DNA of 64,000 nt from Streptomyces sp. NBC_01717 (GTDB lineage Bacteria; Actinomycetota; Actinomycetes; Streptomycetales; Streptomycetaceae), in assembly GCF_036248255.1 (NCBI RefSeq), contig NZ_CP109178.1, positions 8,685,001-8,749,000 of the forward strand, in the 5' to 3' direction. The translations under genes were made by a program, and so were the position numbers. Numbering within the stretch: position 1 is the stretch's first letter; each line of letters starts with the position of its first letter. Shown here one piece after another: positions 27,330 through 63,602 of this stretch. The notes below the pieces were generated by a model. That model searched no databases, was not told the origin of the DNA, and saw only the letters and a list, made by a program, of their open reading frames with translations.

Positions 27330-27668
27330 ATCAGACGGCTTGAGAACGAGTCCGCTCACAAGCACTTCGGGCTTCCCCTTCCTGAACTGGAAGCTGCCCG
27401 AGCCGCGAACCGTAACCTGACCCGTCCCTGAACCAGCGCGGATGTCCTGCTGCAGCAAGGGCCATCACGCCGCCCGGAACCGTGGACGGTGGGGCCAAAT
27501 CATGCCCGTCGGGTCCGCCAACGCGATGGACAGGAGCTGGGGTTCATGGGGGTGTCCCTGTTTCGTCAAGCCGAGCGAGGATGGGATGGGCCGACCGGCC
27601 CTTGGCCTCGGCTCCAGGAGTGGAAGACTGGGAACGTAGGCCAGCTCGGCGTGAGTGAGGAGCCCCCC
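27330..27668. other. Intergenic region before the first CBS-BON gene
   Basis: This 339-bp stretch contains no convincing gene. Its notable content is the DosR-type box at 27588-27601. It marks the left edge of the dormancy island. Confidence 0.5.
27588..27601. promoter_or_regulatory. DosR/OsdR-type box A
   Basis: GGGCCGACCGGCCC, the symmetric form of the recurring box, ends 67 bp before the start of the CBS-BON gene at 27669. An identical sequence occurs at 63589 on the other strand. Confidence 0.65.
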
Positions 27669-28541
27669 GTGGCTAAACGCGAGAAGACCTCGGCAGGGGC
27701 CGAAGCTCGCCGCGCGGTGCCGGCGAAGGCATGGAGGCCCACCGACGAACCCCTGCGGCAGGACATGCTGCTGCGCTACCTCGGCGCGGTGGCCACGGTG
27801 TCCGCCAAGCAGGCGGCGGCACGGCGCCCGACCGTTCCCGAAACGGATTCGGCCGGTCGGGTGAAGAAGTCCGCCGAGCCGTCCGCTGCCGAACCCGCGC
27901 CTCTGCTGGTCCGTGACGTTATGGACATACCGGCCGCATCGGTGCGCGGTGACATGCCGTTCCTGGACATCGCGCGGAGCTTGACCCGTGAACACGTGGG
28001 GTCCCTGCCGGTGGTCGATGCCGACGACCGGGTGATGGGTGTGGTGTCGGAGTCCGACCTGCTGGCGAAGGCCGCGGTAGAGGCCTCCGGATACGAACCC
28101 GGTCCGATCGGCAGGCTGAGGGAACGGCGGCTGCACGACAAGGCCCGTACCGAGACCGCCGAGACGCTGATGACCACTCCGGCCGTCACCGTGTTCCCTG
28201 GTTCGACCGTCGCCGAAGCCACGTGGCTCGTGTCCCTGTCGCGTCTAAAGCGCCTGCCGGTGACGGACCATGAGGGCCGCCTGGTCGGTGTCGTGCACAG
28301 GAACGCACTGCTCAACGCGCTGATACGCGATGATGCCGGGATTCGCGAGGAGATCGAGTCGAGGATCCTCGCCGAAGGCTTCCCGGATGCCCGAAACGCC
28401 GTCGAGGTCACCGTACGCAACGGCGTGGTGGACATCAGTGGCCAGATGGCGGAAGACGACGTTCCGCGGCTCGTCGCAGAGATCAAAGACATCGACGACG
28501 TGACCGAAGTGATCGATCATCTGCACCTTGTCTCAGGGTGA
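27669..28541 (+). CDS. CBS-BON protein 1 (long N-terminal extension)
   Basis: This 290-residue protein has an N-terminal segment of about 75 basic/Ala-rich residues not seen in its six paralogs here. Two CBS domains follow (about 80-135 with LPVVDADDRVMGVVSESDLL; 165-215 with LPVTDHEGRLVGVVHRNALL), and then a BON domain (about 230-288). CBS pairs bind adenylates; BON domains often bind membranes or lipids. GTG 27669 is chosen for GAGGAG 7 bp upstream; GTG 27651 is possible. A DosR-type box lies upstream. Confidence 0.88.
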   Translation: MAKREKTSAGAEARRAVPAKAWRPTDEPLRQDMLLRYLGAVATVSAKQAAARRPTVPETDSAGRVKKSAEPSAAEPAPLLVRDVMDIPAASVRGDMPFLDIARSLTREHVGSLPVVDADDRVMGVVSESDLLAKAAVEASGYEPGPIGRLRERRLHDKARTETAETLMTTPAVTVFPGSTVAEATWLVSLSRLKRLPVTDHEGRLVGVVHRNALLNALIRDDAGIREEIESRILAEGFPDARNAVEVTVRNGVVDISGQMAEDDVPRLVAEIKDIDDVTEVIDHLHLVSG

Positions 28542-28602
28542 CGCCGGAGTCCCGACTTGCGTCAGCATGCACGCGGTCCACGATCTCGCTCGACCGAGTA
28601 GC

Positions 28603-28821
28603 CTAGCTGTCGCCCAGCGTGATGGTGGTCTCGGGAGGGGCGTCGAGTAAGGAGGCCGGGGCCTCGCTCCAATCATCGGGCTCGCACACAGTGTCCAGCA
28701 ACGCGCGGGCGCATGCGGCGGGCTGCCAGCCGCGGCTGGTTCCGATCGACGAGAAGCCTGCAGATTCCGTGCACTGCCCCAGGCGCTGCTCGACTGTACG
28801 GCTGAGTCGGTTGGAGTCCAC
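28603..28821 (-). CDS. Small hypothetical protein, 72 aa, with TTA codon
   Basis: GTG 28821 has an excellent ribosome site (GAGG, 6 bp upstream) and opens a 72-residue frame with strongly GC-biased third positions. Its sequence includes GFSSIGTSRGWQPAACARAL and LLDTVCEPDDW, with an acidic C-terminus. It diverges from the sensor kinase gene with 75 bp between the starts. It contains a TTA leucine codon near the C-terminus (bldA-dependent in Streptomyces). The function is unknown; small partners of two-component systems exist but none is recognised here. Confidence 0.5.
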   Translation of the reverse strand: MDSNRLSRTVEQRLGQCTESAGFSSIGTSRGWQPAACARALLDTVCEPDDWSEAPASLLDAPPETTITLGDS

Positions 28822-28896
28822 CAGGTGCCTCGTGGTGGTCGGTCCTACCGTGGAGGTGTGGCCCGCCCGGGATGGGTGGGTCAAGGTGGAGGCACC

Positions 28897-30612
28897 GTGG
28901 GCGACAACGGAACTGACCGCTGTGGTGGGGCGCGACGTCGGCTGAGCACGTTGCCGGCCGACCTCCAGGGGCGCCTTGATGCCGTGACCCATAGCTCTGC
29001 CGGGGCGGCCCTGCTACTGGATGCCGTGATGTCGGTGGGAAGGGGACTCGATCTGCCCCAGGTGTTGCGCCGGATTGTCGAAGCCGCAGTTGTTGTGGTC
29101 GATGCCGAGTACGGAGCCCTGGGAGTGGTTGGCGAGGGAACCCGGCTGACGCAGTTCCTGCCCGTGGGCGTCACCGTGGAGCAGCGGGAGGCCATCGGCC
29201 CGCTGCCAGCGGGGCACGGCCTCCTGGGCGAGCTCATCCGTCATCCTGAGCCCCTGCGGCTCGCGGAGCTTGCCGAGCATCCAGCGTCGTACGGGTTCCC
29301 GCCGAACCACCCCCCGATGCATTCGTTTCTGGGGGTGCCCATCCGGGTTCGCGACGAAGTGTTCGGCAATCTGTATCTCACTGAAAAACGGGGCGGTCGT
29401 GCATTCGATGCAGAGGACGAGACCGTGCTGTCGACGCTGGCCGTGGCGGCGGGAGTGGCGATCGAGAACGCTCGCCTGTACGCGGAGACGTGCGATCGCC
29501 AACGGTGGCAGGAAGCCAATAGTGAGATCGTCGCGGGTCTGCTGAGCGGGGTGAACGAGGCGCACGTCCTGCAGATGATCGTCGATCGTGCCTCGCGTAT
29601 TCTCTCCGCGGACCTCGGCGTCCTGGCACTCCCCACGGAGGGTAGGAGCCTCCGGGTGGCACTGGCGTCAGGTGTGGACGCCGAGATTCATCAAGGTCTG
29701 GTCCTGCCACGTGAGGGATCGTTCGTCGGCGCGGCTCTCGATGCGGGCGAGCCGATCACCAGCCGCGATGTCGGGCACGATCCGCGGATCACCGAGGGCC
29801 CGCCGAGGTGGGCGGGGCTCGGCCCGGCTGTCGCGGTCCCGATGATTACGGGAGAGCGGACCCGTGGGGTGCTGTTGTTGGCCCGCGTACGGGAGCGTCC
29901 TGCCTTCACCACGTCGGAAACCTTGCCCCTGCTGACCTTCGCAGGTCAGGCTGCGCTGGCGATGGAACTCACCGAACGGCGCAAGTCCGCCGAGCAGATC
30001 GCTCTGCTGGAGGACCGGGACCGCATCGCCCGGGATCTGCACGACCTGGCCATTCAGCGGCTGTTCGCCACCGGTATGACCCTGCAGAGCGTGGTGCGGT
30101 TCGTGGATCATCCACAGGCGAGCGAGCGGTTGCTGCGCGCGGTGGACGATCTGGACGAAACCATCAAGATCATCCGATCCACGATCTTTGGCCTACGTGC
30201 ACGCGGACCGGGCCGTGCCGACCAGGGGCTGCGAGGGCGGACGGTGGCTACGGTGGAACAGGCCGCACGTACCTTGGGCTTTCAACCCTCCCTGCGGATG
30301 GGAGGGCTCATTGACACAGATGTGCCGGCAGAGATCGCCGAGCAGGTGATCGCCGTCCTGGGGGAGGCGCTGAGCAATGTTGCTCGCCATGCACAGGCCA
30401 CGTCGGTGGATATCTCGCTCGTGGTGGGTGAGGGGGCGCTGAACCTCGTCGTGTCCGACAACGGTGTGGGCATGCCCGAGAACGGTGGTTCCCGAAGCGG
30501 GCTCGCCAACCTTGCACGGCGCGCCGAGAAGCTCGATGGCGAGATGAGAGTGGGGGCATCGGGGAAGGGCGGCACCCAGCTGAACTGGCGGGTGCCACTG
30601 CGGCTGTCCTGA
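28897..30612 (+). CDS. Oxygen/redox-sensor histidine kinase, GAF-GAF type (DevS/DosS/OsdK-like)
   Basis: This 571-residue cytoplasmic kinase has GAF-A (about 45-190), GAF-B (about 215-360), a HisKA_3 dimerisation domain with DRIARDLHDLAIQRLF (phospho-His 382), and a HATPase domain with N box LGEALSNVARHAQ and DNGVGMPE. GAF-A keeps the DosS-like segment NHPPMHSFLGVPIRVRD. DosS binds heme through a His in this region, so His138 or His142 is a candidate ligand. GTG 28897 follows GGTGGAGG. It converges with the response regulator gene 18 bp away, its presumed partner. Confidence 0.9.
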   Translation: MGDNGTDRCGGARRRLSTLPADLQGRLDAVTHSSAGAALLLDAVMSVGRGLDLPQVLRRIVEAAVVVVDAEYGALGVVGEGTRLTQFLPVGVTVEQREAIGPLPAGHGLLGELIRHPEPLRLAELAEHPASYGFPPNHPPMHSFLGVPIRVRDEVFGNLYLTEKRGGRAFDAEDETVLSTLAVAAGVAIENARLYAETCDRQRWQEANSEIVAGLLSGVNEAHVLQMIVDRASRILSADLGVLALPTEGRSLRVALASGVDAEIHQGLVLPREGSFVGAALDAGEPITSRDVGHDPRITEGPPRWAGLGPAVAVPMITGERTRGVLLLARVRERPAFTTSETLPLLTFAGQAALAMELTERRKSAEQIALLEDRDRIARDLHDLAIQRLFATGMTLQSVVRFVDHPQASERLLRAVDDLDETIKIIRSTIFGLRARGPGRADQGLRGRTVATVEQAARTLGFQPSLRMGGLIDTDVPAEIAEQVIAVLGEALSNVARHAQATSVDISLVVGEGALNLVVSDNGVGMPENGGSRSGLANLARRAEKLDGEMRVGASGKGGTQLNWRVPLRLS

Positions 30613-30630: not shown

Positions 30631-31344
30631 TTACGTCTGATGCTGTCCGGCTCCAGGCGGCGGGGAAGGTTCCGTGGCGTGCGCAGCGATCACGGCCGCC
30701 TGGATGCGGCGCTCGACGCCGAGCTTGGCCAGCAGACGGGAGATATGATTCTTGACGGTTTTCTCCGACAGGTAGAGGCGCTTGCCGATCTGGCTGTTCG
30801 TCAGCCCTTCACCGATCAGTTCGAGGACGTCCTTCTCCCGCGGGGATAGCCCGGACAGCGCGTCGTCCCCCTCGGGTTCAGCGGCGGATTCCTCCTCGCG
30901 CAGGCTGCTCATCAGCCGTGCCGTGGTCGTCGGGTCGAGGGTCGAACGCCCGGATGCCAGTGTGCGGACGGCGGCAACAAGGTCAGAACCCTTGATTACC
31001 TTGAGCACGTAGCCTGCCGCGCCAGCCATGATCGCGTCGAGCAGCGCTTCGTCGTCGTCGAACGAGGTAAGCATCAGACAGGCCAGCTCCGGCATCCGAG
31101 AGCGCAGTTCCCGGCACACGGCGATACCGTCGCCGTCCGGCAGCCGCACATCGAGAATCGCGACGTCCGGGCGGAGCGCCGGGCCGCGAGCCAGAGCCTG
31201 ATCGGCTGTGCCGGCGTCGCCGACGACCTTGATGTCGGGTTCCGCGTCAAGCAAATCCTGCACCCCGCGCCTGACCACCTCGTGATCGTCGAGCAGGAAC
31301 ACGCGGATCGGTCTCTGGGCCGAGAACCCCGTCTCGTCGCTCAT
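30631..31344 (-). CDS. NarL/FixJ-family response regulator (DevR/DosR/OsdR-like)
   Basis: This 237-residue regulator has a receiver domain with the acidic pair DD (19-20), phospho-acceptor Asp65 in [13 protein letters not shown], Thr93/Ser94 and Lys115. A LuxR-type HTH lies at about 170-215 ([38 protein letters not shown]). It matches mycobacterial DevR/DosR and S. coelicolor OsdR. ATG 31344 has GAGGAGG 6 bp upstream. A box of the repeated island motif lies 78 bp upstream, suggesting autoregulation. It probably controls the island. Confidence 0.9.
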
Positions 31345-31846
31345 GGTGCCCTCCTCGCCGTCGAGGGGTTGCGCAGTCCCGCCCCTCCGCCATAGTGCAT
31401 CCGCATAGGAGCTACGCACCAGGGCCGAACAGGCCCATGCTGCCGACCGTTCAGATCGCAGGAACCTCGGCCACGGCACCGTACGGCTACAGCAACCGGG
31501 GCCGCGTTCCGTCCAGCGGCCGTTCGCCGCCGTCGACTATCTGCGCACGTCGACGGCCAGTGCAGCGGCCTTCCCGCATCGAGGCGGCTGGACTTTAAGA
31601 AGACAGCCCCAATGACGCACTCGGGTGGCGATGGCCCACACCGTCGCGGTTCCGGAGGCTGCTCGCCAAATCGGACCCCGCCGGGCTCGGCCGACACTTG
31701 GAGTAGCTCCGTCGTGCCCCGAGCCAGCTCCGTCACGGTGGTGTCCACCGCTTCGGCCAGCCGCAGCAGAATCGGATCCCGGCGGAGTCCTCACCCCATC
31801 GGCTTTCCACCCGGCCGCGTCACGCGTGCGGGTATCGGCGTCATGC
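31345..31846. other. Intergenic region upstream of the response regulator
   Basis: This 502-bp stretch holds the regulator promoter and DosR-type box B. The rest shows no convincing gene. One minus-strand open frame ending on the regulator start codon was considered and not accepted. It may be decayed coding sequence. Confidence 0.5.
31422..31436. promoter_or_regulatory. DosR/OsdR-type box B
   Basis: GGGCCGAACAGGCCC (read inverted, GGGCCTGTTCGGCCC) lies 78 bp upstream of the response-regulator start. It is a near match to the box at 49840. Confidence 0.6.
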
Positions 31847-32722
31847 TCAAGGGGTGTGGGGCACAACGGCGACCGGGCAGGGCGCGTAGTGCAGAACCGC
31901 GTGATTTACCGGCCCGAGGTGGAGGCCGTGCCGTCCGCCGTCCCGCCGCGCGCCAACGACGAGGAGTTCCGCGCCTGTGGCGGCTTCGATCAGTGTCTGG
32001 TGGGCCGGTCCCTGGACCACCGAGTGCTCGATGACGGCATCGGAGCCGGAGCGGTCCAGCACCGCCAGGACGTTTTCGAGGTGTTCCTCGGCTTCCCGGC
32101 GGTGTGCGGATGCCGGAGTACCCGAGAGGAGCGGATGGTCCATGGCCTCGTGGGCGGGGCAGCGCCAGGCCCGTACGGCGATCAGTTCACCGTGACGCGA
32201 TGCCGCTTGTTCGAGTGCGAAGCGGGCCGCTGCTGACGGGCCTGCGGCGTCTCCGATCCCGACGACGATGCGACCGGGCTTCGGTTGCGTGTTCGGCGGG
32301 GGCGTCGGGATCACGACGACCGGACAGTGGGAGCGGCCGGCCAGGGCGAGGCTGACGGATCCGAGGAGCATCCCGGCGATTCGGCCCCGGCCGCGGGAAC
32401 CGAGCACGACAAGGGTTGCCTCGTGGCTCTCCTGGACGAGTGCGGTCACCGGGTCTTCGGGCTGCACGTCGGCGACCATGCTCACCTCCGAATGGAGGCG
32501 TTGTGCCCGCTCCTGCGCGGAGGCGACGACATGCTCGGCGAGGATCTGCTCGGCCGGACGCTCGGTGTCGAATGTGGGGCGCAGCCCTTCGTAGTGTTCC
32601 CACAGCGATGCGTGGATGACGCGCAGGGGGAGTCCTAGCCGGGCCGCCTCCGTCGCTGCCCAGTCCAGTGCGCGCAGACTGCCCTCTGATCCGTCCACTC
32701 CGACGACTACAGGGAGCTGCAT
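31847..32722 (-). CDS. Universal stress protein 1, tandem UspA domains
   Basis: This 291-residue protein has two UspA domains (about 1-145 and 155-290). The first opens PVVVGVDGSEGSLRAL and has the ATP-loop motif VLGSRGRGRIAGMLLGSVS; the second ends LLVVGARRDGGRHGLHLGPV. Both keep the G-2x-G-9x-G(S/T)-type nucleotide site. The gene starts 60 bp after the nitroreductase stop and is probably co-transcribed with it from box C. ATG 32722 is favoured; a GTG 9 bp earlier is possible. Mycobacterial homologues are DosR-regulon members. Confidence 0.9.
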   Translation of the reverse strand: MQLPVVVGVDGSEGSLRALDWAATEAARLGLPLRVIHASLWEHYEGLRPTFDTERPAEQILAEHVVASAQERAQRLHSEVSMVADVQPEDPVTALVQESHEATLVVLGSRGRGRIAGMLLGSVSLALAGRSHCPVVVIPTPPPNTQPKPGRIVVGIGDAAGPSAAARFALEQAASRHGELIAVRAWRCPAHEAMDHPLLSGTPASAHRREAEEHLENVLAVLDRSGSDAVIEHSVVQGPAHQTLIEAATGAELLVVGARRDGGRHGLHLGPVNHAVLHYAPCPVAVVPHTP

Positions 32723-32782: not shown

Positions 32783-33784
32783 CTAAGGTTCGATGGTCAG
32801 CACTTGGTTTACGGGGCGGCGTGGTGTGTGGGGCCCCGCCGGGCCGTATCCCAAGCGGATGATCATCTGTGCGTTTCCCGTGCCGAAGACCGGGTCGCGC
32901 AGGATCCATCGAAGGTCCGGCCACTCGAGGGGCTGCGTCGCGAATGAGCTGGATACGTGGTGGAGTGTGGCGGTGAGCAGGACGCGTTCCAGAGCCTGGC
33001 CGGCGCGCAGCCAGTCTTCGGCCCGGTCGCCCGCGGTGCTCAGAAGGGCCAGCTGCGGCCGGTTCTCGAACAGGACGCGTACTCGGCCTGCGAAAACGGC
33101 GGTGCCCGCGAAATCGCGGACGGTCGCCCTTTCGGAAGCGTCGCGGGGCCCGAACGCGTAGTCCGGAATTCCGTCGGCTGGGACCTCAGTTTTTGTGTCC
33201 CGGGTCCAGCTGCGCTGTTCCGCCTCTCGCGCCGGATCCCTGCGGTCGTATCCCTCGGCATCCCGGATCAGTTCGAGCACCGTCTCCAGATGCGTCGGAG
33301 TCAGGAAGGCGAAGTCCGCGCCCTCGATACGGGCCGCTTCGGCGAAGCGCACACGAATGTCCTCGGGGATGGCTCGCTCGTCGAACGGATAGCGGCTGGT
33401 ATGCCGGTCCCGAATCGCAGGGTGGAGGGCCGCGAGTGCTTCGTCCGCCGGCTTCCGGGCGGAGTCGGGGCGGATACCCAGGCGTACGACGGCCAGGAGG
33501 GACGGGTCCGACGGTTCGGGCAGCAGCGTGGTGACCAAGTCCAGACCGAGGTAGGCGGCGGATACCCGCAGGTTCAACAGGGCCGCGCCGCAGCCGACAT
33601 GGAGTCCGCGGGTGGAGGGGTCGGCCTCTGGCATCGCACGGTCGAGGTCCGCCCGGAGCGTGAGGGTGCGGCTGGAGCGTTCGTAGCAGAACTGCCAGGG
33701 CTGGGCGTTGTGCATGGATGGCGCGGAGGTGGCATCGGCGACTAGGTCGGTCAACGTGGTCTCGTCGAGCCTTTTGGTGAGCAT
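32783..33784 (-). CDS. Acg-like nitroreductase-fold protein
   Basis: This 333-residue protein has the Acg family layout: two fused nitroreductase-like halves. It starts with a variant flavin-site block SAPSMHNAQPWQF and has a C-terminal ALERVLLTATLHHVSSSF and IIRLGYGPAG. Mycobacterial Acg (Rv2032) sequesters FMN and is strongly induced by DosR; catalytic turnover in the family is doubtful. ATG 33784 has GGGAG 7 bp upstream. It is first in an operon with the universal stress protein gene. A tandem DosR-type box lies 74 bp upstream. Confidence 0.88.
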   Translation of the reverse strand: MLTKRLDETTLTDLVADATSAPSMHNAQPWQFCYERSSRTLTLRADLDRAMPEADPSTRGLHVGCGAALLNLRVSAAYLGLDLVTTLLPEPSDPSLLAVVRLGIRPDSARKPADEALAALHPAIRDRHTSRYPFDERAIPEDIRVRFAEAARIEGADFAFLTPTHLETVLELIRDAEGYDRRDPAREAEQRSWTRDTKTEVPADGIPDYAFGPRDASERATVRDFAGTAVFAGRVRVLFENRPQLALLSTAGDRAEDWLRAGQALERVLLTATLHHVSSSFATQPLEWPDLRWILRDPVFGTGNAQMIIRLGYGPAGPHTPRRPVNQVLTIEP

Positions 33785-33857
33785 CGCGGGTCTCCCGGAG
33801 AATCGGGAACGGTCGATGGCCCCTTCAGCATGGAGCGGTTCGTAGTCCCGTACAAAT

Positions 33858-33892
33858 GGGCCGTTCGTCCCTCGACAGGGCCGGATGGACTC
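33858..33892. promoter_or_regulatory. DosR/OsdR-type box C, tandem pair
   Basis: GGGCCGTTCGTCCC (33858-33871) and the weaker GGGCCGGATGGACTC (33878-33892) are 20 bp apart and 74 bp upstream of the nitroreductase start. Both read best on the minus strand, the direction of that gene. Confidence 0.65.
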
Positions 33893-34428: not shown

Positions 34429-35082
34429 TCAGGGGGATGTCAGGCCTTCGAGCCGACAGTCCACGCTGACCACGCCTTCCACGGACTGAGCGAGCCGGGC
34501 GGCGACGGGAATGAGGGTGGCGTCGCTGACGCGACCGGTGAGCGTGGCCACACCCCAGGTGACGCTGACCTTCACGTCTTGGTGCGCGACGGGGAACAGC
34601 CGGTTGACGACCTCACGACGAATTTCGGAGGCGAGCTCGTCGTCTGAGCGCAGGAAAACCTTGAGGAGATCGGCGCGGCTGACGATGCCCTTGAGACTGC
34701 CATCGGCGTCAACGACCGGTAGGCGCTTGACCTGCTGGTCGGCCATGAGCCGGGCGGCCTGCGGGAGAGGCGCGTCGGGCTTGACTGTGACGGCGGGGCT
34801 CGTCATCAGATCCTTAGCCTGGACCGAGCCAGCCTTGGCGATGTCTCCCAGGCGGCGCATATCCTCGATCATGCCGGGCGACTGCTCGTGGAACTCCTCC
34901 TTCGGGAGCAGGTCGGCCTCGGAGACGACGCCGACGACTCGGCCCTCGCCTTCGATGACGGGTACAGCGGTGACTTTCCACCGCTCCATGGCGGCGGCGA
35001 TCTCTTTGAATTGCGCGTCGGGAGTGACGGTGACGACGGTCTTGGTCATGACGTCGTCGACGGTGTACCGGCCAGAGGTCAT
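34429..35082 (-). CDS. CBS-BON protein 2
   Basis: This 217-residue protein has CBS1 (about 8-65, VPVIEGEGRVVGVVSEADLL), CBS2 (about 92-145, LPVVDADGSLKGIVSRADLL) and BON (about 150-213, VTWGVATLTGRVSDATLIPV). It is most similar by eye to CBS-BON 7 at 59559; both have the LLPKEEF linker. ATG 35082 is chosen for GAGGAA upstream. A degenerate pair of box-like sequences (about 35130 and 35149) lies upstream. It may act as an adenylate-sensing adaptor at membranes or on partner enzymes. Confidence 0.88.
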   Translation of the reverse strand: MTSGRYTVDDVMTKTVVTVTPDAQFKEIAAAMERWKVTAVPVIEGEGRVVGVVSEADLLPKEEFHEQSPGMIEDMRRLGDIAKAGSVQAKDLMTSPAVTVKPDAPLPQAARLMADQQVKRLPVVDADGSLKGIVSRADLLKVFLRSDDELASEIRREVVNRLFPVAHQDVKVSVTWGVATLTGRVSDATLIPVAARLAQSVEGVVSVDCRLEGLTSP

Positions 35083-35399: not shown

Positions 35400-36827
35400 T
35401 CAGCGGACCAGGACAGCCTCCCCAGGCTTGGGTACGACCGCTGTCCAATCCAGCTCATGGTCGATCCGGTCCCGCAGGGCATCGGACGATGACTCCTCGC
35501 CGTGGACCAGATAGGTCGTGCGTGGTGCAAGGGAGCCGCGGAGCCAGTCCATGATCTGGTCGGCATCAGCGTGGGCCGAAAAGTGCGGTAGGTCGGCCAC
35601 CTCCGCGCGTACAGGGACGTAATCGCCGAACATCTTGAGTGTGTGGGCGCCGTCGACCAGGTCGCGGGCCCTGGTGCCAGCGGCTGCGAAACCGACGATG
35701 ACGACGGCGTTGCGTGGATTGGGCAGGAGCCGGTGGAGGTGGTGCAGGACCCGGCCGCCGGTGGCCATGCCGGCTGAAGAGACAATGACGGCGGGACCGG
35801 GCGTGCTGTTGATGTCGATGGACTCCTGGACGGTTCGCGCGGGCAGAAACGGGTCAGGGCTGATCGCTGTCTCGCCGTGGTCGAGAATCTCGGGCCTGAT
35901 CTCGGGGGAGCGGGCACGCAGTGCTTCGCGGTAGACGTCGAGCGCGGCCAGAGCCATGGGGCTGTCCACATAGACGGGGACGGACCGGGGCAGGACCCCG
36001 TCCTGGCGCAGGGCGGCGAGCTCGTGGAGGACAACCTCGGTGCGGTCGATCGCGAAGGCCGGGATGACGACGGTTCCGCCGCGCGCGAGGGTACGCGTGA
36101 GTACGGCTGCGAATGCGGCGTGGGCTTTTTCGGGTTCATGGTGACGATCGCCGTACGTCGACTCCATCAGTAGTACGTCGGCGCCGCTGAACGGCTCCGG
36201 TGGCAGCAGCAGTGGGTGGCCGGGGCGCCCGAGATCTCCGCTGGTGGCCAGGGTGTGGCCGTCCTCAAGGGTCAGGTGGGCCCAGGCCGAGCCGAGGATG
36301 TGTCCACCGTGGTGCAGTGTGAGCCGGGTGCCTTCCATGATCTCGATTTCGCTGCCGACCGGGACGGGGTCGAAGAACTTCACGGTGGTGTCGACGTCGG
36401 TCTCGTCATAGAGCGGTTTGGCGGGCCGGTGCTTGGACCAGCCGTGTGTATTGGCGTGGTGGGCCGCCTCCATCTGGAGGTGCGCGCTGTCACGGAGCAC
36501 GATCTCGGCGAGCCGGGCGGTGCGGGCGCTGGTCAGGATTGGACCCCGGAAGCCGTTCCGGACCAGTCGGGGCAGGTAGCCGCAGTGGTCCAGGTGGGCA
36601 TGGGTGATGACCACGGCATGGATGTCCGAGGCGTCGCACGGCAGCTTTGCCCAGTTGCGGCGGCGCAGGTCGGCAAAACCCTGGAAGAGACCGCATTCGA
36701 GGCGGACCCGGGCATGGTCACTCTCGATGAGGAACTTGCTGCCGGTGACGGTCCGGACACCCCCGAGGAAGCGCAGCAGCGCGGGTCTCGACGAGGGCGT
36801 GGCCGGGCCCGAGTCTGTGTCGAACAT
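35400..36827 (-). CDS. Metallo-beta-lactamase/beta-CASP RNase-like protein
   Basis: This 475-residue protein is of the CPSF73/RNase J-like type. The metal motif [10 protein letters not shown] (HxHxDH) lies at about residues 75-84. Further ligand blocks are GGHILGSAW and [10 protein letters not shown]. The beta-CASP region includes [13 protein letters not shown] and [13 protein letters not shown], and near the C-terminus YLVHGEESS. It is probably a zinc-dependent nuclease acting on RNA; related genes occur in bacterial dormancy and stress clusters. ATG 36827 follows GGAGGGG. A tandem DosR-type box lies 67 bp upstream. Confidence 0.88.
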
Positions 36828-37221
36828 TGCCGGCCCCTCCTTCGGCGGGTGGTAGCCCTCTCGACCATCACACTCCCGGCACCGGGGCGGGATGGGCCCG
36901 ACAGGTCCGGACGGGGACCGACCGGCCCATGCGCGACAGACCTGCGCCGAGTCAACCTGGGGGCAAACCTCACCGGAGAATTGGCAGGAAGAGGGGCGGC
37001 CTCGTGGAGTCACTCGTTCTTCAGGGCGCGGGGCAGACTGCATGGACGCGGCCCATGGCGTGTTCGCCGTCGAAGCCGCTGGCGCCGGGGCGGAAGCAGG
37101 GCATCGTCGCCCTGTGGGCCCGCTCGTCGGCCTCGGCCGGGCCTGGGCTTCAAACGCCGAACCGCACTGGTGCGCCCAAGACCTGGCTGCTGGGTCGTGC
37201 ATTCATGACCGGAGAGCGGTC
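36828..37221. other. Divergent intergenic region with tandem DosR-type box
   Basis: This 394-bp stretch lies between the divergent MBL-fold and GH65 genes. It holds box D near the MBL end. Long open frames through it lack family-like sequence. A seven-codon leader-like frame ATG 37205-TGA 37225 overlaps the GH65 start. Confidence 0.5.
36894..36928. promoter_or_regulatory. DosR/OsdR-type box D, tandem pair
   Basis: GGGCCCGACAGGTCC (36894) and GGGACCGACCGGCCC (36914) start exactly 20 bp apart. They lie 67 and 87 bp upstream of the MBL gene and about 290 bp before the GH65 gene. The second copy is identical to box E read on the other strand. Confidence 0.7.
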
Positions 37222-49141: not shown

Positions 49142-49153
49142 CGTCCCTCTCCT

Positions 49154-49756: not shown

Positions 49757-49819
49757 GATTCCTCCGAGAACGAACGGCCCTATATGTCCCAGCGTCGGCA
49801 GCGTTGTCTGCCGGCGGCA

Positions 49820-50684: not shown

Positions 50685-50712
50685 GGTCCGTTTTCCCTTT
50701 CATTCGGGGCTG

Positions 50713-51651: not shown

Positions 51652-51687
51652 GGGGCCATCTGGCCCGTTGCGGGGCCGATCAGCCCC
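51652..51687. promoter_or_regulatory. DosR/OsdR-type box I, tandem pair
   Basis: GGGGCCATCTGGCCC (51652) and GGGGCCGATCAGCCCC (51672) start 20 bp apart, 69 and 89 bp upstream of USP 3. Both are near-palindromic. Confidence 0.7.
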
Positions 51688-51722: not shown

Positions 51723-52418
51723 TCAGCCCATGCGCGGCACACTGTGGGGGGCAGGTGTGGGGGCATCGGCGTGTGCAGTCACATGGCCTACGACCGCGAC
51801 CACCCCGTCGAGTTGTTCTGCAAGGCGCGTCAGGATCGCAATCTGGCTCCGGCTCTCCAATTGGCCTTCCAGAGTGACGACGCCGTCGATCACATGGACG
51901 GCGACCGCGTCGGCTCCGAGCCCCATGGTGCCCACAACTACGTCCTCGATGATGCGTCGTCGTATCTCCGCGTCGGGGCGCAGAAACAGGCGGAGCAGAT
52001 CCCGGCGCGTGACGATACCGACGAGCCGGTCCTCGTCGTCCACGACCGGCAGCCTCTCCACGCCACTACGCATCATCAGCCGAGCGGCGTCCGGTGCGGT
52101 CTCGTCTGCGTGGACGGTCACCGCCGGTGTCGACATGACCTCGGCAGCCATGAATTCCGCTCCCGACGACACTGCGGTCCCGGTGCCGGTCCCTGTGCCG
52201 GCGTCTGGTCCGTCGCTCGGCACGAGGTGTCTCGCGGCCTGTCGGTTCACCAGGTCGCTCTCGGAGACGACGCCGACGACCTGGTCCTCTTCGTCGAGCA
52301 CCGGCAGTCCGCTGATGTTGTACTGGGCGAGCAGCTTCGCGACCTCCTTGAAGGAGGTGGCGGGGACGACCGAGACGACCTCGTCGGTCATCAGGTCTCC
52401 CACTCTGATGTGCTTCAT
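51723..52418 (-). CDS. CBS-BON protein 6 (Gly-Thr linker)
   Basis: This 231-residue protein has CBS1 (LPVLDEEDQVVGVVSESDLV), a linker containing the low-complexity run AGTGTGTGTAV, CBS2 (LPVVDDEDRLVGIVTRRDLL) and BON (IDGVVTLEGQLESRSQIAIL). The repeat-coded linker (about 52165-52200) may vary between strains. ATG 52418 has GGAGGAG upstream. It diverges from USP 4 across box J, which is 165 bp from this start. Confidence 0.9.
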   Translation of the reverse strand: MKHIRVGDLMTDEVVSVVPATSFKEVAKLLAQYNISGLPVLDEEDQVVGVVSESDLVNRQAARHLVPSDGPDAGTGTGTGTAVSSGAEFMAAEVMSTPAVTVHADETAPDAARLMMRSGVERLPVVDDEDRLVGIVTRRDLLRLFLRPDAEIRRRIIEDVVVGTMGLGADAVAVHVIDGVVTLEGQLESRSQIAILTRLAEQLDGVVAVVGHVTAHADAPTPAPHSVPRMG

Positions 52419-52583
52419 GGAGGCTCCTCCTGCCGTCTCGCCGACCCGCACGGACGCAATGCCGGAGGTCGTTCAGAGACCACGATCCGCCGGCCGTACC
52501 GGAGTGAGGAGGGCCGAATGGGTCTCAGCCGGGACCGGTCGGACCCGGCTCGAGTGCTCGGGCAGGGCAGGATTCCCTCGGCA

Positions 52584-52618
52584 GGGACCATTGGGCCCCG
52601 GGCGGTCCTGAGCGGCCC
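52584..52618. promoter_or_regulatory. DosR/OsdR-type box J, tandem pair
   Basis: GGGACCATTGGGCCC (52584) and GGTCCTGAGCGGCCC (52604) start exactly 20 bp apart. The pair ends 70 bp before USP 4 and 165 bp from CBS-BON 6, so the rightward USP-USP-ATPase operon is the likelier target. Confidence 0.7.
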
Positions 52619-52688: not shown

Positions 52689-53591
52689 ATGGAAGGCACG
52701 ACTGGCAGGCTGGAACTGGGTGCCGTCATCGTCGGCGTCGATGGCTCCAAGCCGGCCCGCCAGGCAGCGTTGTGGGCGGCGGCCGAGGCTGTACGCCGTG
52801 ACAGTCCACTGCACATCGTCCACGCGGCTGACACGGACCGCCGGGCTCTCTACCTTTCAGTGGAGAGCATCGAGCGTGTACGCAACGCGGGCCAAGAACT
52901 GCTGCGGGACACTGCCGCCGCCATCAGGGACCAGTATCCCGGTGTGCACATCACCACGGAGCTCAGCCGCAGCTCCGCCGTCCCCAGCCTGCACCGGACC
53001 GCGGGGCTCCGCGGCACTGTCGTGGTGGGGAACCGGGGTCTCGGCGGTTTCGAATCTCTCATGCTCGGATCCGTCGGTCTGAAGGTTGCTGCCGGTGCCA
53101 CGACGCCCGTGATCGTGGTCAGGGGCGTTGAGAAGGGAGGTGAGGCCGGAGTGGTGCTCGCCGCGGTCCGTGACGAGCACGACGGCGAATGCGCCCGCTA
53201 CGCGGCGCGCGAAGCCGAGCTCCGCCAGGCATCGCTGCGGCTGTTGCACGTGTGGAACGTACTCGAGTCCGCCGGACTGGCCGTGACCATGCTCGACAAC
53301 GTCGAAGGAATGGCCGGCGAACAGGTTCACCAACTGACGGCGGTGGCGGACGGGATCCGCGATGAATTCCCGGCCCTGACCGTGCAGACGGATGCTGAGG
53401 GAAGCCTCACCGTGGCCGGAGTTCTGGTCGAGGCATCCCATCACGCGGATCTGCTGGTGATGGGCGGACGGCGGTCACCCGGTTACATCGGACGCACCCT
53501 CGGGCGGACGACGCACACTCTCCTGCACCACGCGCACTGTCCAGTGCAGCTTATTCCGCGGCACGGTCCCGGACACGGGAGTGAGTCGTGA
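52689..53591 (+). CDS. Universal stress protein 4, tandem UspA domains
   Basis: This 300-residue protein has domain 1 (about 12-145, AVIVGVDGSKPARQAALWA; VVGNRGLGGFESLMLGSVG) and a more diverged domain 2 (VVLAAVRDEHDGECARYAA; VMGGRRSPGYIGRTLGRTT). ATG 52689 has GAGGAGG upstream. It is first in a three-gene unit USP 4 - USP 5 - P-type ATPase 2 with overlapping junctions, driven from box J. Confidence 0.88.
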   Translation: MEGTTGRLELGAVIVGVDGSKPARQAALWAAAEAVRRDSPLHIVHAADTDRRALYLSVESIERVRNAGQELLRDTAAAIRDQYPGVHITTELSRSSAVPSLHRTAGLRGTVVVGNRGLGGFESLMLGSVGLKVAAGATTPVIVVRGVEKGGEAGVVLAAVRDEHDGECARYAAREAELRQASLRLLHVWNVLESAGLAVTMLDNVEGMAGEQVHQLTAVADGIRDEFPALTVQTDAEGSLTVAGVLVEASHHADLLVMGGRRSPGYIGRTLGRTTHTLLHHAHCPVQLIPRHGPGHGSES

Positions 53592-54448
53592 TGGCCGCCG
53601 CTGAACGCCGCGAGCTCGTCGTCGGCATCGATCCGGCCAAGGATTGGCACCTGCCGCTGGCCTGGGCGGCGGACGAGGCCCATCGACGCGGGCTGGAGCT
53701 TCGGCTCGTCGTGGTCGTATCTCCACTACACGACACGCAGCACTGCGATGACAGCGCGCGCAGGATGTCCATGATCCAAGCCGGGTCACACGCTCTCCAA
53801 GCAGGTGCCGACTGGGCCCGGGAGCGCCATCCGCAACTGCAGCCGGTCACCGATCTGCTCGATGGCTTCCCGGCTTCGGTGATCGCCCGACTGTCCGAGG
53901 ACGCCCGGATGGTCGTCCTCGGATCCCGACACCTGAACCGTACGGCGGAGCACTTCAGCGCCGGCTCCCTCGTCGTCCCCGTCACGGCAAGGGCACGTTG
54001 TCCTGTGGTGGTCGTGGGCGACGCGGAGCACGTCACCCAACAGCCGACCTACCTGGTCGTGGGAATTGACGGCAGCGAGTCCTCGAAGGCGGCGCTGGGG
54101 CTGGCGTTCGAGGAGGCAGACTTCCGCGGAGCCGCGCTCCGCGCCGTCTCGGTGTGGCAGCCGCCCGTGATCATGCTTCACGACGCGAAGGCCGCCGTGC
54201 AGGCTCAGCGTCGGATGCTCTCCGAGACCACAGCAGGTTGGTCGCTGAAGTACCCGGACGTGCACCTGGCCCACGAAGTGCCGACCGGACATCCGGTGGA
54301 GGAGCTCGCCAAGGCGTCCGAGCACGCCCTGGCTGTCGTCGTGGGCCGCCGCGGCCGGGGCGGTTACACGGGCATGCGGCTCGGTTCAGTCGTCCACGGA
54401 CTGCTGCACCGCGCGCACTGCCCGGTGATCACAGTTCCCCTCGTGTGA
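53591..54448 (+). CDS. Universal stress protein 5, tandem UspA domains
   Basis: This 285-residue protein has domain 1 ELVVGIDPAKDWHLPLAWAA with VVLGSRHLNRTAEHFSAGS (a degenerate nucleotide loop) and domain 2 YLVVGIDGSESSKAALGLAF with VVVGRRGRGGYTGMRLGSVV (intact). Only the second domain is likely to bind ATP. The start overlaps the USP 4 stop (TGATG) and its stop overlaps the ATPase start (GTGA), so all three genes are translationally coupled. Confidence 0.88.
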   Translation: MAAAERRELVVGIDPAKDWHLPLAWAADEAHRRGLELRLVVVVSPLHDTQHCDDSARRMSMIQAGSHALQAGADWARERHPQLQPVTDLLDGFPASVIARLSEDARMVVLGSRHLNRTAEHFSAGSLVVPVTARARCPVVVVGDAEHVTQQPTYLVVGIDGSESSKAALGLAFEEADFRGAALRAVSVWQPPVIMLHDAKAAVQAQRRMLSETTAGWSLKYPDVHLAHEVPTGHPVEELAKASEHALAVVVGRRGRGGYTGMRLGSVVHGLLHRAHCPVITVPLV

Positions 54449-57060
54449 AGCCTCATCGTGACTACCACCTCGGACGTGGACGAGTGCCGGTAGAGGAGCC
54501 CGGCGGGTTGACCGCGGCGGAGGCCGAGCGCCGTCTGGCCGAGCACGGCCGCAACGAGGTGGCGGAGGTGCGTAGCGCACCTCTGTACAGCCGAGTCGTT
54601 GCGCAGCTCGGTGATCCGCTGATCATGGTGTTGCTCGGTGCGGCACTGCTGACGATTGTGATCGGCGATCACGCGGACGCGGTGGTCATCGGTCTGGTGA
54701 TCGTCTTCAACACGACGGTGGGGGTCGCGCAGGAGATCCGCGCTGACCACGCCGTGGCAGCTCTGTCGGCGATGTCGGCACCGAGCGCTCGTGTCCTGCG
54801 GGACGGCTCAGCACGGGAGATTGCCGCAACGGTTGTGGTGCCCGGCGACGTACTGCTGCTCGGCGAGGGCGACATCGTCGCTGCCGACGCCGAGCTCATC
54901 GAGGCATCTGCCCTACTCATCGACGAATCCATGCTTACCGGGGAGTCCGTCCCTGTGGACAAGGATTCCGGCGCGCTGCTGGGCGCAGGGACTGTCGTGG
55001 TGCGCGGACGGGGCGTCGCAACGGTCACAGTCACCGGCGCCGAAAGTGCGCTCGGCCGTATCGCCGCACTCCTCGACGGTGCACGCGAGCCGACACCACT
55101 GCAGCGCCGTCTCGCCTCCCTGGGGCGCATCCTGGCCGTCGTCACCCTGGGACTCTGCCTTGTGGTCTTCGTCTTCGGGCTCGCACGCGGCCTGCCGGCC
55201 GGGACCATGGCCGTGACGGCGATCAGCCTGGCCGTCGCGGCGGTCCCCGAGTCCCTGCCTGCCGTCGTGACCCTCGCACTGGCGCTGGGCGCCCGGCGTA
55301 TGGCGGCCCGGCACGCCCTCGTACGCAGGCTCCCGGCCGTGGAGACGCTCGGCTCCGTGGCAGTGCTGGCTACCGACAAGACCGGAACCCTCACCGAAGG
55401 TCGCATGGTGGTTCAGCACGTTTGGACGCCGCGGCTTGCAGCGGATTTCTTCGGGGTGGGTTACGAACCTTATGGGGACATCCAGGTCGATGGCAGGAAG
55501 CCGACGCCCGCTGAACTTGGCCCCGTACGGGACCTGCTGACGGCGGCATCGCTGTGCAATGACGCCGCCCTGCGGCCACCGAAGGATCATGCCGCCCATG
55601 AGAACCGGTGGACTGCGGTCGGTGACCCCATGGAAGCCGCACTCTTGGCGGCAGCGGCCAAAGCAGGTTGTGCGGATCAAACGGAAATCAGGCGGCTGTA
55701 CCCGAGGACATGGGAAGCACCGTTCGACAGTCTCCGCAAGCGCATGACCACAGTGCACCGAATGCCTTCAGGTGCTCTGCTCGTGTGCTTGAAGGGCGCG
55801 CCTGAAGTGGTGCTCGACGTCTCCGTGCTCGCCGACCGCAAAGACGTCCTGATGGGCGCGCGACAGCAGGCGGCGATCCTTGCTTCCCGCGGCTTCCGAG
55901 TGCTCGCCGTTGCATCCACCGAGCGGCGGAACGAACCGAGCAACGCTGCCACAGCTGAGACAGGCCTGCGGCTGCTGGGCCTCGCTGCCATCAGCGATCC
56001 CCCGAAACCAGCGGCGGCCGCTACGCTCGCCGCCTGCCGTGCAGCGGGGATCACACCAGTCCTTATTACGGGAGATCACCCCGCCACAGCACGCGCGGTG
56101 GCCGCTCGTGTGGGACTCATTGACGGAGTCTGCGGTGACGACTCGGTACTTACTGGCCCTGATCTGGCATCAGGGCGCACAGACGACCTCACCACAGCAC
56201 GGGTATTCGCCCGGACGAACCCGCAGCAGAAACTGGACATCGTCGATGCCTGGTGTTCCCGAGGGGCGGTCACGGCCATGACCGGCGACGGTGTCAACGA
56301 CGGCCCGGCCCTGCGCCGGGCCGACATCGGTGTGGCCATGGGCAAGCGGGGAACGGAGGTCGCACGACAGGCGGCTGACCTCGTCCTCACCGACGATGAC
56401 CTGTCGACCGTAGTCGCGGCCGTCGAGGAGGGCCGGCGCGTGTACGACAACATCCGGCGCTTCTTGATTTATGGCCTGGCTGGCGGTACCGCGGAGATCC
56501 TCGTCATGCTGGTCGGTCCCCTTGTCGGACTCCCGCTGCCCCTCCGGGCCGGCCAGATCCTGTGGATCAATTTGCTGACCCATGGTCTGACTGGTGTGGT
56601 CATGGGCGCAGAGCCGGCGTCCCCGGATGCCATGCACAGGCCACCGCGGCCACCCGGTCAGCACATCCTCGGCGCCGGTGCTTGGCAGCGTCTCCTCGTG
56701 CTGGCCACGGTCGTTACCGCGGTCTGTCTGGCGGCAGGGGTTGTTGCACGTGCCTGGGACCTTCCATGGCAGAGCGTCCTGTTCCTGTCGCTGCTCGGCG
56801 CGCAACTCGGCGTCGTCATGGGGCTGCGGACGCGTCTACTGACCCGGCAGAACCCCTTCCTCCCCCTGGCCGTGCTCGCATCTGCCCTGCTGGCGCTGGC
56901 GGCCCTGTACGCTCCGCCGCTGCGGTCGGTTCTGGAGACCGAGCCGCTCGGTTGGTCCGGGGCCGCTCTTGCGACGGCCGCCTTTATGAGTGGCTACCTG
57001 GCTGCTCGGTTCACACGACATGCATTCCGGGAAAGGAAGGCCGCGGAGGCGAAGTCATGA
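54445..57060 (+). CDS. P-type cation ATPase 2 (SERCA/PMR1-like)
   Basis: This 871-residue membrane pump has the actuator motif [20 protein letters not shown] in the fourth helix ([16 protein letters not shown]), phospho-Asp311 in [20 protein letters not shown] and [20 protein letters not shown], with a six-helix C-terminal bundle. The sequence suits Ca2+ or Mn2+ transport but the ion is not proven. GTG 54445 overlaps the USP 5 stop; GTG 54484 is an alternative. The direct coupling of a pump to two stress proteins suggests a functional complex or shared control. Confidence 0.92.
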
Positions 57061-61888: not shown

Positions 61889-62710
61889 TCACGTCCCTAG
61901 TTCTGAGGCGTGGTCGGGGACGTAGGTCTGAAGGTCCCTCGGCGGCCGTTGGTATCCGGTGGCCGGCGGCCGCCGAGGGATTTCGATCACTGGTGGAGTG
62001 ACTGTCTCGTATGGCACGGATGACAGAAGATGGGCGATCATGTTCAGTCTGGCCCGGCGCTTGTCGTCGCTCTCGACTACATACCAGGGAGCCTCCGAGA
62101 TGTCCGTATGGACGAACATCTCGTCCTTTGCACGGGAGTAGGCCTCCCAGCGGGTGATCGATTCCAGGTCCATCTGCGAGAGCTTCCATCGGCGGGTGGG
62201 ATCCTGGAGCCGGCGTCGGAACCGTTCCTCCTGCACGGCGTCACTCACCGAGAACCAGTACTTGCGCAACAGAATGCCGTCCTCCACGAGCATTCGCTCG
62301 AAGATCGGGCATTGGCGAAGGAACCTCTGGTGTTCCTCCATGGTGCAGAAACCCATGACGCGCTCGACGCCCGCGCGGTTGTACCAGCTCCGGTCGAGGA
62401 GGACCACCTCCCCTGCAGCTGGAAGATGCTCTGTGTACCGCTGGAAGTACCACTGGCTGCGCTCGCGCTCGGTGGGCTGCGGCAGGGCGACGATGCGTGC
62501 TACCCGGGGATTGAGGTGTTCAGTGACGCGCTTGATCGTGCTGCCCTTGCCGGCCGCGTCACGTCCCTCGAACACCACGACGAGTCGTGCGCCTTCGGCC
62601 CGTACCCACTCCTGGAGCTTCACGAGCTCGGTCTGGAGTCGGTACAGCTCCGGTTCGTACAGCGAGCGTCGCAGCTTTCCGGGCCTGCCTGTGCCTTTCT
62701 CGTCTGCCAT
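61889..62710 (-). CDS. ppk2: Polyphosphate kinase 2 family protein
   Basis: This 273-residue PPK2 kinase has Walker A FEGRDAAGKGSTIKRV, the lid region VALPQPTERERSQWYFQRY, Walker B LLDRSWYNRAGVERVMGFC and the lid helix RLQDPTRRWKLSQMD. PPK2 enzymes make ATP or GTP from polyphosphate and NDP/NMP, a way to regenerate nucleotides when respiration stops. It lies upstream of the nicotinate phosphoribosyltransferase gene on the same strand (201 bp gap). The start MADEKGTG is conventional. Confidence 0.92.
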   Translation of the reverse strand: MADEKGTGRPGKLRRSLYEPELYRLQTELVKLQEWVRAEGARLVVVFEGRDAAGKGSTIKRVTEHLNPRVARIVALPQPTERERSQWYFQRYTEHLPAAGEVVLLDRSWYNRAGVERVMGFCTMEEHQRFLRQCPIFERMLVEDGILLRKYWFSVSDAVQEERFRRRLQDPTRRWKLSQMDLESITRWEAYSRAKDEMFVHTDISEAPWYVVESDDKRRARLNMIAHLLSSVPYETVTPPVIEIPRRPPATGYQRPPRDLQTYVPDHASELGT

Positions 62711-62989
62711 GGGATGACGTTACGGACGGGACCACGCTCGAAGTCAAGCGTCAGCGCCGAACGGACCTCGCCGCGCGGACCCGTTACGGCGTCCGCGTAT
62801 GGCTCGGGCGGCAGACAGGTGACGCGGGTGTCTCCGTGGCCGTGCCACTGGCGGGTGTGGTGCCGCCGCCCGCTGAGGGTGGCGGGCGAGCGGCCCGGGG
62901 TGCGCCGGGGGACCGGGTGCAGAAGCGCTCTGGCATAGGAGATGGCGGCGCGCAAGGGAACGTACACGTCGCACGCAGCCAATTCGCGC

Positions 62990-63493
62990 CTATCGGCTGC
63001 CAGCAGAACCCACATGCAGCGCGACTTCTTCCGCGATCCGTTCGGCGAGCGGCTCCACGATGGCTGCGACGGGTGCTGACAGGCCGGTGCCCAGGCTGCT
63101 GTCGGCTCCCTCGATGGCGTAGACGACCAGTTGTCCGGGCAGGCGGTCCAGTTCGCGGGCGAGTTCGACGGCGTCGCCGAGCCCGAGCCCGTGGGAACTC
63201 GTCGCACTGCCTGTCTGCGACAGCTGCCCACCATCCAGTTCCAGGCGATGTAGCCGACCGGGATGCCCGGGGTGTGCGTGTGCGGCGTCCACCACGATGG
63301 CGAGGTCGGCGTCTTCCCACAGGGTGATCAGTCGGGCGGGGTCACCGTCGCACACCAGAAGGGCGGTCCCACTCGGCAGTGGCCATTCCTCGGCTCGTTC
63401 TGTCAGCCGGGCCACGACGGCCCAGCCCACACCGTCGTCGTGGCGGAACTCGTTCCCGACGCCGATGACGGCGATCCGCGTAGTGAGGTTCAC
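62990..63493 (-). CDS. [NiFe]-hydrogenase maturation protease
   Basis: This 167-residue HycI/HoxW-type endopeptidase starts IAVIGVGNEFRHDDGVGW, where the Glu in GNEFRHDD is a nickel-site residue, and contains IVVDAAHAHPGHPG, with Asp and His as further ligands. It cleaves the C-terminal tail of the hydrogenase large subunit after nickel insertion. GTG 63493 follows GGGAAGGGG. It diverges from the probable hydrogenase operon at 63671, which supports the function. No gene was seen at 62711-62989. Confidence 0.88.
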   Translation of the reverse strand: MNLTTRIAVIGVGNEFRHDDGVGWAVVARLTERAEEWPLPSGTALLVCDGDPARLITLWEDADLAIVVDAAHAHPGHPGRLHRLELDGGQLSQTGSATSSHGLGLGDAVELARELDRLPGQLVVYAIEGADSSLGTGLSAPVAAIVEPLAERIAEEVALHVGSAGSR

Positions 63494-63588
63494 ACGCTTG
63501 CCCCTTCCCGCCGGACAGGCCCGGCAGTTGTACCGGGTCCGCGCGGGGGCCGTACGGGGTGACGGACACCGCCACCTGGACCACGCAG

Positions 63589-63602
63589 GGGCCGGTCGGC
63601 CC
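63589..63602. promoter_or_regulatory. DosR/OsdR-type box K
   Basis: GGGCCGGTCGGCCC is the exact reverse complement of box A. It lies 68 bp upstream of the hydrogenase-operon start and 95 bp upstream of the divergent protease. A degenerate copy (ACCGCCACCTGGACC) lies about 20 bp to its left. Confidence 0.65.

Follow-up and report, generated by a model that had tools for sequence, protein, structure and literature searches.

Which regulator controls the stress genes crowded into the right-hand part of a 64,000-nucleotide stretch of Streptomyces sp. NBC_01717 (contig NZ_CP109178.1, positions 8,685,001 to 8,749,000; hereafter the window), and through what operators? A matrix scan finds the palindrome AGGGCCGATCGGCCCT before a DevR/OsdR-family response regulator and before neighbouring stress genes. 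The same consensus, AGGGCCGATCGGCCCT, has been published with electrophoretic mobility shift data for OsdR of S. coelicolor (available portion of PMC5069765), in agreement with the comparison that an earlier note on this DNA had suggested. We conclude that the boxes very probably serve a DevR/OsdR-type two-component system as the operators through which it activates a cluster of low-oxygen and stress genes. Sequence relationships, box excess, conservation and spacing are established here, and the cluster is a well-supported new example of the OsdR/DevR kind known from S. coelicolor.

Because fitting to the sequence of the window was to be avoided, a 16-bp weight matrix was trained solely on S. 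coelicolor sites predicted for OsdR, 25 in number, from Table 1 of PMC5069765. With this matrix 13 sites score at least 11 in 27,501-64,000 (27587, 31421, 33857, 36914, 41294, 43942, 44610, 49000, 49766, 49840, 51672, 62753 and 63588). The control, 20 evenly spaced 20-kb stretches of the same genome (L041-L060), also holds 13, but in 400 kb rather than 36.5 kb, which amounts to an 11-fold excess (Poisson p = 5e-10); 200 first-order Markov resamplings gave 1.1 such sites on average and at most 6. The cut-off of 11 was picked once the scores were known; at alternative cut-offs the right part and the 400 kb hold 15 versus 44 sites (at least 9), 8 versus 9 (at least 12) and 5 versus 2 (at least 14). 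Position points the same way: 11 of the 13 sites in 27,501-64,000 are intergenic, where intergenic DNA occupies just 5.4 of 36.5 kb by our own gene list. The earlier note would have given up its reading had the motif proved as frequent inside core genes as upstream of the genes it named; in the 400 kb of the genome on which this was checked, 9 of the 13 control sites fall within genes, near the expectation from the 81% coding share. Gene starts come from a simple caller of our own; Pfam supports gene content, not starts.

The box strings in the earlier note all sit at the coordinates it gave, and ten of its eleven loci score at least 11, the pair at 52584/52604 being weak (8.2 and below 6). 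Among its second copies, 51652 scores 7.8 and 36894 only 4.7, and 49820 (about -6) is hardly a box; it overlooked the sites at 62753, before the polyphosphate kinase 2 (PPK2) gene, and 49766, and the pair 52510/52531. It had seen no good copy in 1-27,500, where indeed zero sites reach 10 by the matrix (top score 9.95, at 11989), and the 63-78 bp that it gave from box to start hold for all eight genes it named, with the starts used here.

The boxes are also conserved. Five relatives (G001-G005) carry a window-type regulator, 89-97% identical, and the upstream regions of orthologues were compared for 13 preselected boxes, with orthologues required to share at least 60% identity and to match from near the gene start. 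In 28 of the 33 comparisons the box was more nearly identical than the 60 bp flanking it on each side (10/12 in G001, 7/8 in G002, 4/4 in G003, 2/3 in G004 and 5/6 in G005). The failures were the regulator box in G001 (altered, still 14.5) and in G005, the box of the pyruvate phosphate dikinase (PPDK)-type gene in G001 (0.94 versus 0.96), the Hsp20 box in G004 (absent) and the CBS-BON 4 box in G002, where the alignment has probably slipped, since the matrix scan finds a box there. Among individual boxes, the strong one before the MBL nuclease is kept in all three relatives compared (with a score of just 7.8 in one), that of the PPDK-type gene keeps its position with altered letters in both relatives compared, and the PPK2 site scores 9.0 and 10.2 in two relatives and is missing from a third.

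The regulator itself finds its top solved-structure match in DevR (3c3w, E 2e-76), to which it is 60.5% identical over 215 residues, and shares with it EKTVKN and SRLLAKLG in the recognition-helix stretch. For OsdR an identity of 61% to DevR is reported (available portion of PMC5069765). The first GAF domain of the kinase is best matched in the PDB by DosT (2vzw, E 2e-48) and DevS (2y8h, E 8e-44). The His of an HPPM motif (29308-29310) and a Tyr 22 residues on (29374-29376) are conserved, the His being the presumed haem ligand; we take these residues to correspond to H149, the haem ligand, and Y171, the distal residue, of DevS. Taken together, the published consensus, the DevR-like regulator, the DevS/DosT-like kinase and the footprints back the DosR-type box and regulon that the earlier note had read from the letters. 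Its further claim, of a single regulon governed by the regulator at 30631, is no more than a possible reading, because the genome encodes three regulators of this family at more than 60% identity: that of the window, a 77% twin with boxes of its own (G000:C1:8633150-8633851) and a third, more distant one at 63% (G000:C1:4712012-4712671). The twin lies in locus A (G000:C1:8627000-8641000), 82 kb before the window regulator.

A regular promoter layout accompanies the boxes. Among box pairs from 80 related loci and extra stretches (both boxes scoring at least 8, spaced 13-80 bp), 75 of 177 lie 20-22 bp apart; these pairs were not dereplicated and some fetched stretches overlap, so they are not 177 independent events. 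The control stretches contain one pair in total, and the 21 boxes of this genome alone give one or two pairs per offset. We then considered 202 dereplicated promoters, drawn from 445, with a box 35-130 bp from the called start (window and locus A included, with a few loci of other genera). About 62% of them have a hexamer nAnnnT that begins 22-24 nt beyond the end of the proximal box (61% of the 115 promoters with a single box, 64% of the 87 with tandem boxes); its best single offset accounts for 30% (single) and 32% (tandem), as against at most 9% at any offset in 200 shuffles, and anchoring the tandem promoters on the distal box shifts the peak to 43-45, as expected. The hexamer was selected after the sequences had been inspected, and was discovered and measured in one promoter set. 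TAnnnT, tried first as the -10 element, was essentially absent. Counting nAnnnT as -12 to -7 places the proximal box at about -50 to -35 with its centre near -42.5, and the sequence spacing fits the DevR-type promoter form, with a proximal box over -35 and a second box close by. In M. tuberculosis, analysed DevR promoters share close-packed boxes of which the proximal one overlaps -35 (available portion of PMC3029386). The OsdR paper (PMC5069765) uses neither tandem nor spacing nor transcription start in its main text. New here are the -10-like nAnnnT at 22-24 nt from the proximal box and the tendency of paired boxes to lie 20-22 bp apart.

In the window this layout occurs at a plausible start distance in 9 of 15 boxed upstream regions (21-25 nt, weak second boxes allowed). 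A strict composite scan (strong box plus -10 at 22-24, score 8) finds it in 6 of 40 box-orientations of the window and 10 of 150 of the control, a modest separation that arises partly because proximal boxes are often weak.

These observations suggest how the cluster may work; binding, phosphorylation, oxygen sensing and activation are the steps that we infer. By analogy with DevS/DosT, the GAF-haem kinase (28825-30612) would sense either the loss of oxygen or the presence of nitric oxide and phosphorylate the regulator at 30631. The phosphorylated dimer would then bind the proximal box, which at about -50 to -35 would substitute for a -35 element, aided co-operatively by a second box two helical turns (about 21 bp) upstream, and would recruit RNA polymerase to the nAnnnT -10 element. 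The genes predicted to respond are those for the stress and CBS-BON proteins, the nitroreductase, Hsp20, the nuclease and the ATPases, the hydrogenase operon and the regulator's own gene; the locus A regulator probably recognises these boxes too.

Several results weigh against this account. Across the whole genome the loose consensus of the earlier note, with one mismatch allowed, matches 223 sites where its reversal matches 197, and the exact palindromic core occurs 40 times against 56 for its reversed control. A lone box elsewhere in the genome is weak evidence for that reason, and single boxes far from the cluster are not counted as regulon members; the case rests on the clustering and position of the boxes, not on box sequence alone. 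Within the cluster, no site of at least 6 occurs within 350 bp upstream of the kinase, CBS-BON 2, CBS-BON 7 or multicopper oxidase genes, and the NAPRTase gene has a single site there, of 8.8, that is lost in G001. For the kinase, the same is true of the 350 bp upstream of 28879 and of the homologues in four relatives. The box is absent before the regulator orthologue of G005. The usual -10 spacing is missing for the PPDK-type gene, P-type ATPase 1, PPK2 and the maturation protease, and for the glycosyl hydrolase family 65 (GH65) gene and universal stress protein (USP) 4 it is found just far from the start. The kinase gene, finally, is convergent with that of the regulator and not in a response regulator-kinase operon as in S. 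coelicolor. Such an operon is an arrangement and no requirement of the wider OsdR/DevR family: the kinase is convergent within 700 bp in 25 of the 80 related loci, on the same strand at that distance in none, elsewhere in the locus in 29 and without a match in 26, some loci ending at contig edges.

Could the boxes then be chance or composition-driven GC-rich palindromes? The want of genome-wide enrichment of the bare motif speaks for such an origin, but the 11-fold local excess, the mostly intergenic sites, the preferred -10 spacing and the cross-species conservation contradict it, and we regard it as scarcely credible. A scan of the palindromic core in 61 genomes of the genus favours the two-component reading. 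Its ratio to the control has a median of 0.76 in the 40 genomes that have an OsdR-like regulator versus 0.59 in the other 21 (p = 0.002, uncorrected for relatedness). A genome was counted among the 40 if its best match had an E of 1e-90 or lower, with scoring confined to the 46 top candidates of a first look at each genome.

A further question, given the three regulators, is which of them reads the operators. Two paralogous systems might share one box set, with the window and locus A regulators both binding, a refinement of the two-component reading to which we give about an even chance. The two proteins have identical recognition helices besides their 77% identity, and locus A has eight sites of at least 11, among them 21-bp pairs at 8636264/8636285 and 8639038/8639059, and a kinase 58% identical to that of the window; M. 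smegmatis likewise has two dos-type clusters with a devR in each (available portion of PMC2799521). The window regulator may nevertheless suffice, because G003, G004 and G005 keep boxes before the window orthologues in genomes with no 74-77% twin, though in every one of the three a relative at 67-69% might take its place. Alternatively, the locus A regulator could be the main one and that of the window a specialised or decaying copy. Locus A, which also contains three USP homologues, a cNMP-binding protein and, by eye, a zinc alcohol dehydrogenase-like gene, resembles in this the S. coelicolor osdR region (Table 1 of PMC5069765), and in a tree that leaves the locus A regulator unplaced (bootstrap not settled) the window regulator branches off in a small clade of its own, with 6 rows. 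This we consider improbable, since the window regulator is intact, has its own box and belongs to a clade conserved at 89-97% in five relatives.

The third regulator differs in having no box of at least 11 in its 20-kb stretch (L061), where by eye it adjoins 2-oxo acid dehydrogenase-type genes; by our count, 45 of the 61 genomes have a match at 61-64% identity. Its neighbourhood presumably resembles that of SCO3818, an orphan regulator of S. coelicolor. It may be the orthologue of SCO3818, which OsdK is reported to phosphorylate (available portion of PMC9739842).

Among the predicted targets is the probable hydrogenase operon. Its genes encode, in order, iron-sulfur (Fer4), cNMP-binding, NAD-binding, small NiFe and large NiFe subunits and extend 4.3 kb beyond the window. 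Against NCBIfam, the large and small subunits score best with the sulfhydrogenase alpha and delta models, all below cut-off, and for the NAD-binding subunit models other than sulfhydrogenase score higher. The first subunit is matched in 48 of 246 genomes of the genus. In the 30 best-matching genomes of these 48, this one included, a box of at least 8 lies within 200 bp upstream at 16 loci and is lacking at 14, compared with 9 of 335 control upstream regions, taken from this genome alone (p = 6e-14); without this genome the count is 15 of 29, and the -10 spacing also fits at 8 of the 30. M. smegmatis has a hydrogenase, Hyd3, which we take to be the same as Hyh. By locus number Hyd3 (MSMEG_3927-3931) adjoins a dos-type cluster, and its level goes up when oxygen is low (available portion of PMC2799521); Hyh has been assigned to the dos regulon (available portion of PMC8125079). 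A limited literature search found no Streptomyces hydrogenase linked to OsdR, although one paper that it listed contains both words, hydrogenase once, and the word hydrogenase is absent from PMC5069765.

Beyond the hydrogenase operon, in G000:C1:8754091-8758238 (L013:5091-9238), a box of 10.8 precedes a small gene at 8754217. Further on, a CBS-BON gene (8755933-8756607) and a gene for a GAF-SpoIIE protein (8756832-8758238, minus strand) enclose between their ends a box of 12.9 at G000:C1:8756631, upstream of no start. Elsewhere, G000:C1:1600001-1620000 (L019), a stretch chosen for its two pattern matches, contains 7 sites of at least 9 and possibly further targets.

The features of the cluster are collected in the table. 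With operon membership deduced from intergenic gaps, the boxed units are CBS-BON 1; the regulator; the nitroreductase with USP 1, probably in one operon; the MBL nuclease; the PPDK-type gene; Hsp20; P-type ATPase 1; CBS-BON 4-3, perhaps with USP 2; USP 3 with CBS-BON 5; CBS-BON 6; USP 4-5 with P-type ATPase 2 (weak boxes); PPK2 (doubtful); the maturation protease; and the hydrogenase. The box of P-type ATPase 1 is too near the start used unless the true start lies further on, and 19 bp on from the Hsp20 box is a weak second one (score -3.0). CBS-BON proteins are expanded, with seven in 27669-60182 of the window. An 11.7-scoring box at 49000-49015 lies inside the CBS-BON 3 gene, where a function seems unlikely.

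Table. Boxes and genes of the cluster (window coordinates; matrix scores; relatives as box present/compared)
Feature	Position	Strand	Evidence and remarks
OsdR-type box before CBS-BON 1	27587..27602	+	17.6; -10-like AAGACT 21 nt past box; 2/2 relatives
CBS-BON protein 1	27669..28541	+	Pfam CBS x2, BON; start taken as 27669
Sensor kinase, DevS/DosT-like, GAF-GAF-HisKA_3-HATPase	28825..30612	+	Pfam; convergent with regulator; start uncertain
Response regulator, DevR/OsdR family	30631..31344	-	60.5% identity to DevR over 215 residues
Box before regulator (putative autoregulation)	31421..31436	-	12.7; -10-like CACTAT 23 nt past box; 4/5 relatives
USP 1	31847..32722	-	Pfam Usp; 60 bp gap to nitroreductase gene; no box of its own
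Nitroreductase-family protein	32783..33784	-	Pfam Nitroreductase, 29 bits (cut-off 23.5)
Box before nitroreductase	33857..33872	-	17.0; -10-like CATGCT 24 nt past box; 2/2 relatives
Weaker second nitroreductase box	33877-33892	-	7.5
CBS-BON protein 2	34429..35082	-	Pfam; no box within 350 bp
MBL / beta-CASP / RMMBL nuclease	35400..36827	-	Pfam
Tandem boxes before MBL nuclease, 20 bp apart	36894..36929	-	36914-36929, 11.9; 36894-36909, 4.7; -10-like GATGGT
GH65 protein, divergent from MBL gene	37222..39690	+	Pfam; box 292 bp off, control uncertain
Box 252 bp before PPDK-type gene	41294..41309	+	11.9; no -10 at usual spacing
PPDK-type enzyme	41562..43988	+	Pfam
Box before Hsp20, within end of PPDK gene	43942..43957	+	14.5; -10-like GAAACT; 1/2 relatives
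Hsp20 / alpha-crystallin	44058..44513	+	Pfam
Box 20 bp before P-type ATPase 1 start	44610..44625	+	11.8; 1/1 relative
P-type cation ATPase 1	44646..47330	+	Pfam
USP 2	47499..48374	-	Pfam
CBS-BON 3 (48515-49141) and CBS-BON 4 (49154-49747)	48515..49747	-	Pfam; probable operon
Box-like site 18 bp before CBS-BON 4 start used	49766..49781	-	11.6; in G001, not G002/G005
Very degenerate second copy before CBS-BON 4	49820	-	about -6; -10-like GACGCT 22 nt past copy
Strong box before CBS-BON 4	49840-49855	-	12.3; 3/3 relatives
CBS-BON 5 (49998-50684) and USP 3 (50713-51582)	49998..51582	-	Pfam
Tandem boxes before USP 3, 20 bp	51652..51687	-	51672, 15.3; 51652, 7.8; -10-like CACACT; strong box 2/2 relatives
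CBS-BON 6	51723..52418	-	Pfam
Tandem boxes before CBS-BON 6, 21 bp	52510..52546	-	52531, 9.8; 52510, 8.1; -10-like GATCGT; 52531 in 3/3 relatives
Weak tandem boxes before USP 4	52583..52618	+	8.2 and below 6; counterpart of first in 3/4 relatives
USP 4 (52689-53591), USP 5 (53591-54448), P-type ATPase 2 (about 54508-57060)	52689..57060	+	Pfam
PPK2	61889..62710	-	Pfam PPK2
Doubtful box-like site 42 bp before PPK2	62753..62768	-	13.1; no -10 at usual spacing
Hydrogenase maturation protease	62990..63493	-	TIGR00072 above cut-off
Box between maturation protease and hydrogenase operon	63588..63603	+	16.0; -10-like CATACT 63626-63631
Hydrogenase iron-sulfur subunit, first operon gene	63671..64000	+	probable operon to G000:C1:8753270

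How does the cluster compare with known systems? The mycobacterial box is less GC-rich than the one described here. With OsdR/OsdK of S. coelicolor (SCO0204/SCO0203) the cluster has in common the 16-bp palindrome, boxes clustered round the regulator and placed before the regulator, USP, nitroreductase and PPDK-type genes, and a regulator about 61% identical to DevR; it differs in its convergent kinase and in the second regulator of the genome, and in the hydrogenase operon, Hsp20, CBS-BON and P-type ATPase genes, when set against Table 1 of the same paper (available portion of PMC5069765). No nitrate reductase or transporter was found among the named genes in 27,669-63,493 or the six beyond the window, the rest of the genome not having been searched. 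With Mycobacterium DevR/DosR it shares the proximal box over -35, close-packed co-operative boxes and USPs (available portions of PMC3029386, PMC2799521 and PMC8125079), and with M. smegmatis a NiFe hydrogenase near a dos-type cluster and the presence of two clusters (PMC2799521, likewise in part). The accessory genes differ from those of Mycobacterium, and the -10 spacing was measured here just for Streptomyces and a few close genera.

The OsdR regulon is thereby extended beyond S. coelicolor, with an explicit and testable promoter layout that could help to pick out likely operators in Streptomyces genomes, where GC-rich palindromes arising by chance are numerous. A Streptomyces hydrogenase operon is tied to control of the kind seen in M. 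smegmatis, and the two-regulator arrangement offers a natural system for asking how duplicated two-component systems divide or share their targets. More tentatively, for we think it rather less likely than its opposite, the genome may contain a duplicated DosR-type network in which two very similar regulators, both responsive to oxygen and paired with separate haem-GAF kinases, use shared boxes in a rigid layout (two boxes 21 bp apart, then 22-24 nt to the -10). The hypoxia regulon would then be split into two kinase-gated branches, one of them driving a hydrogenase that disposes of reducing power without oxygen.

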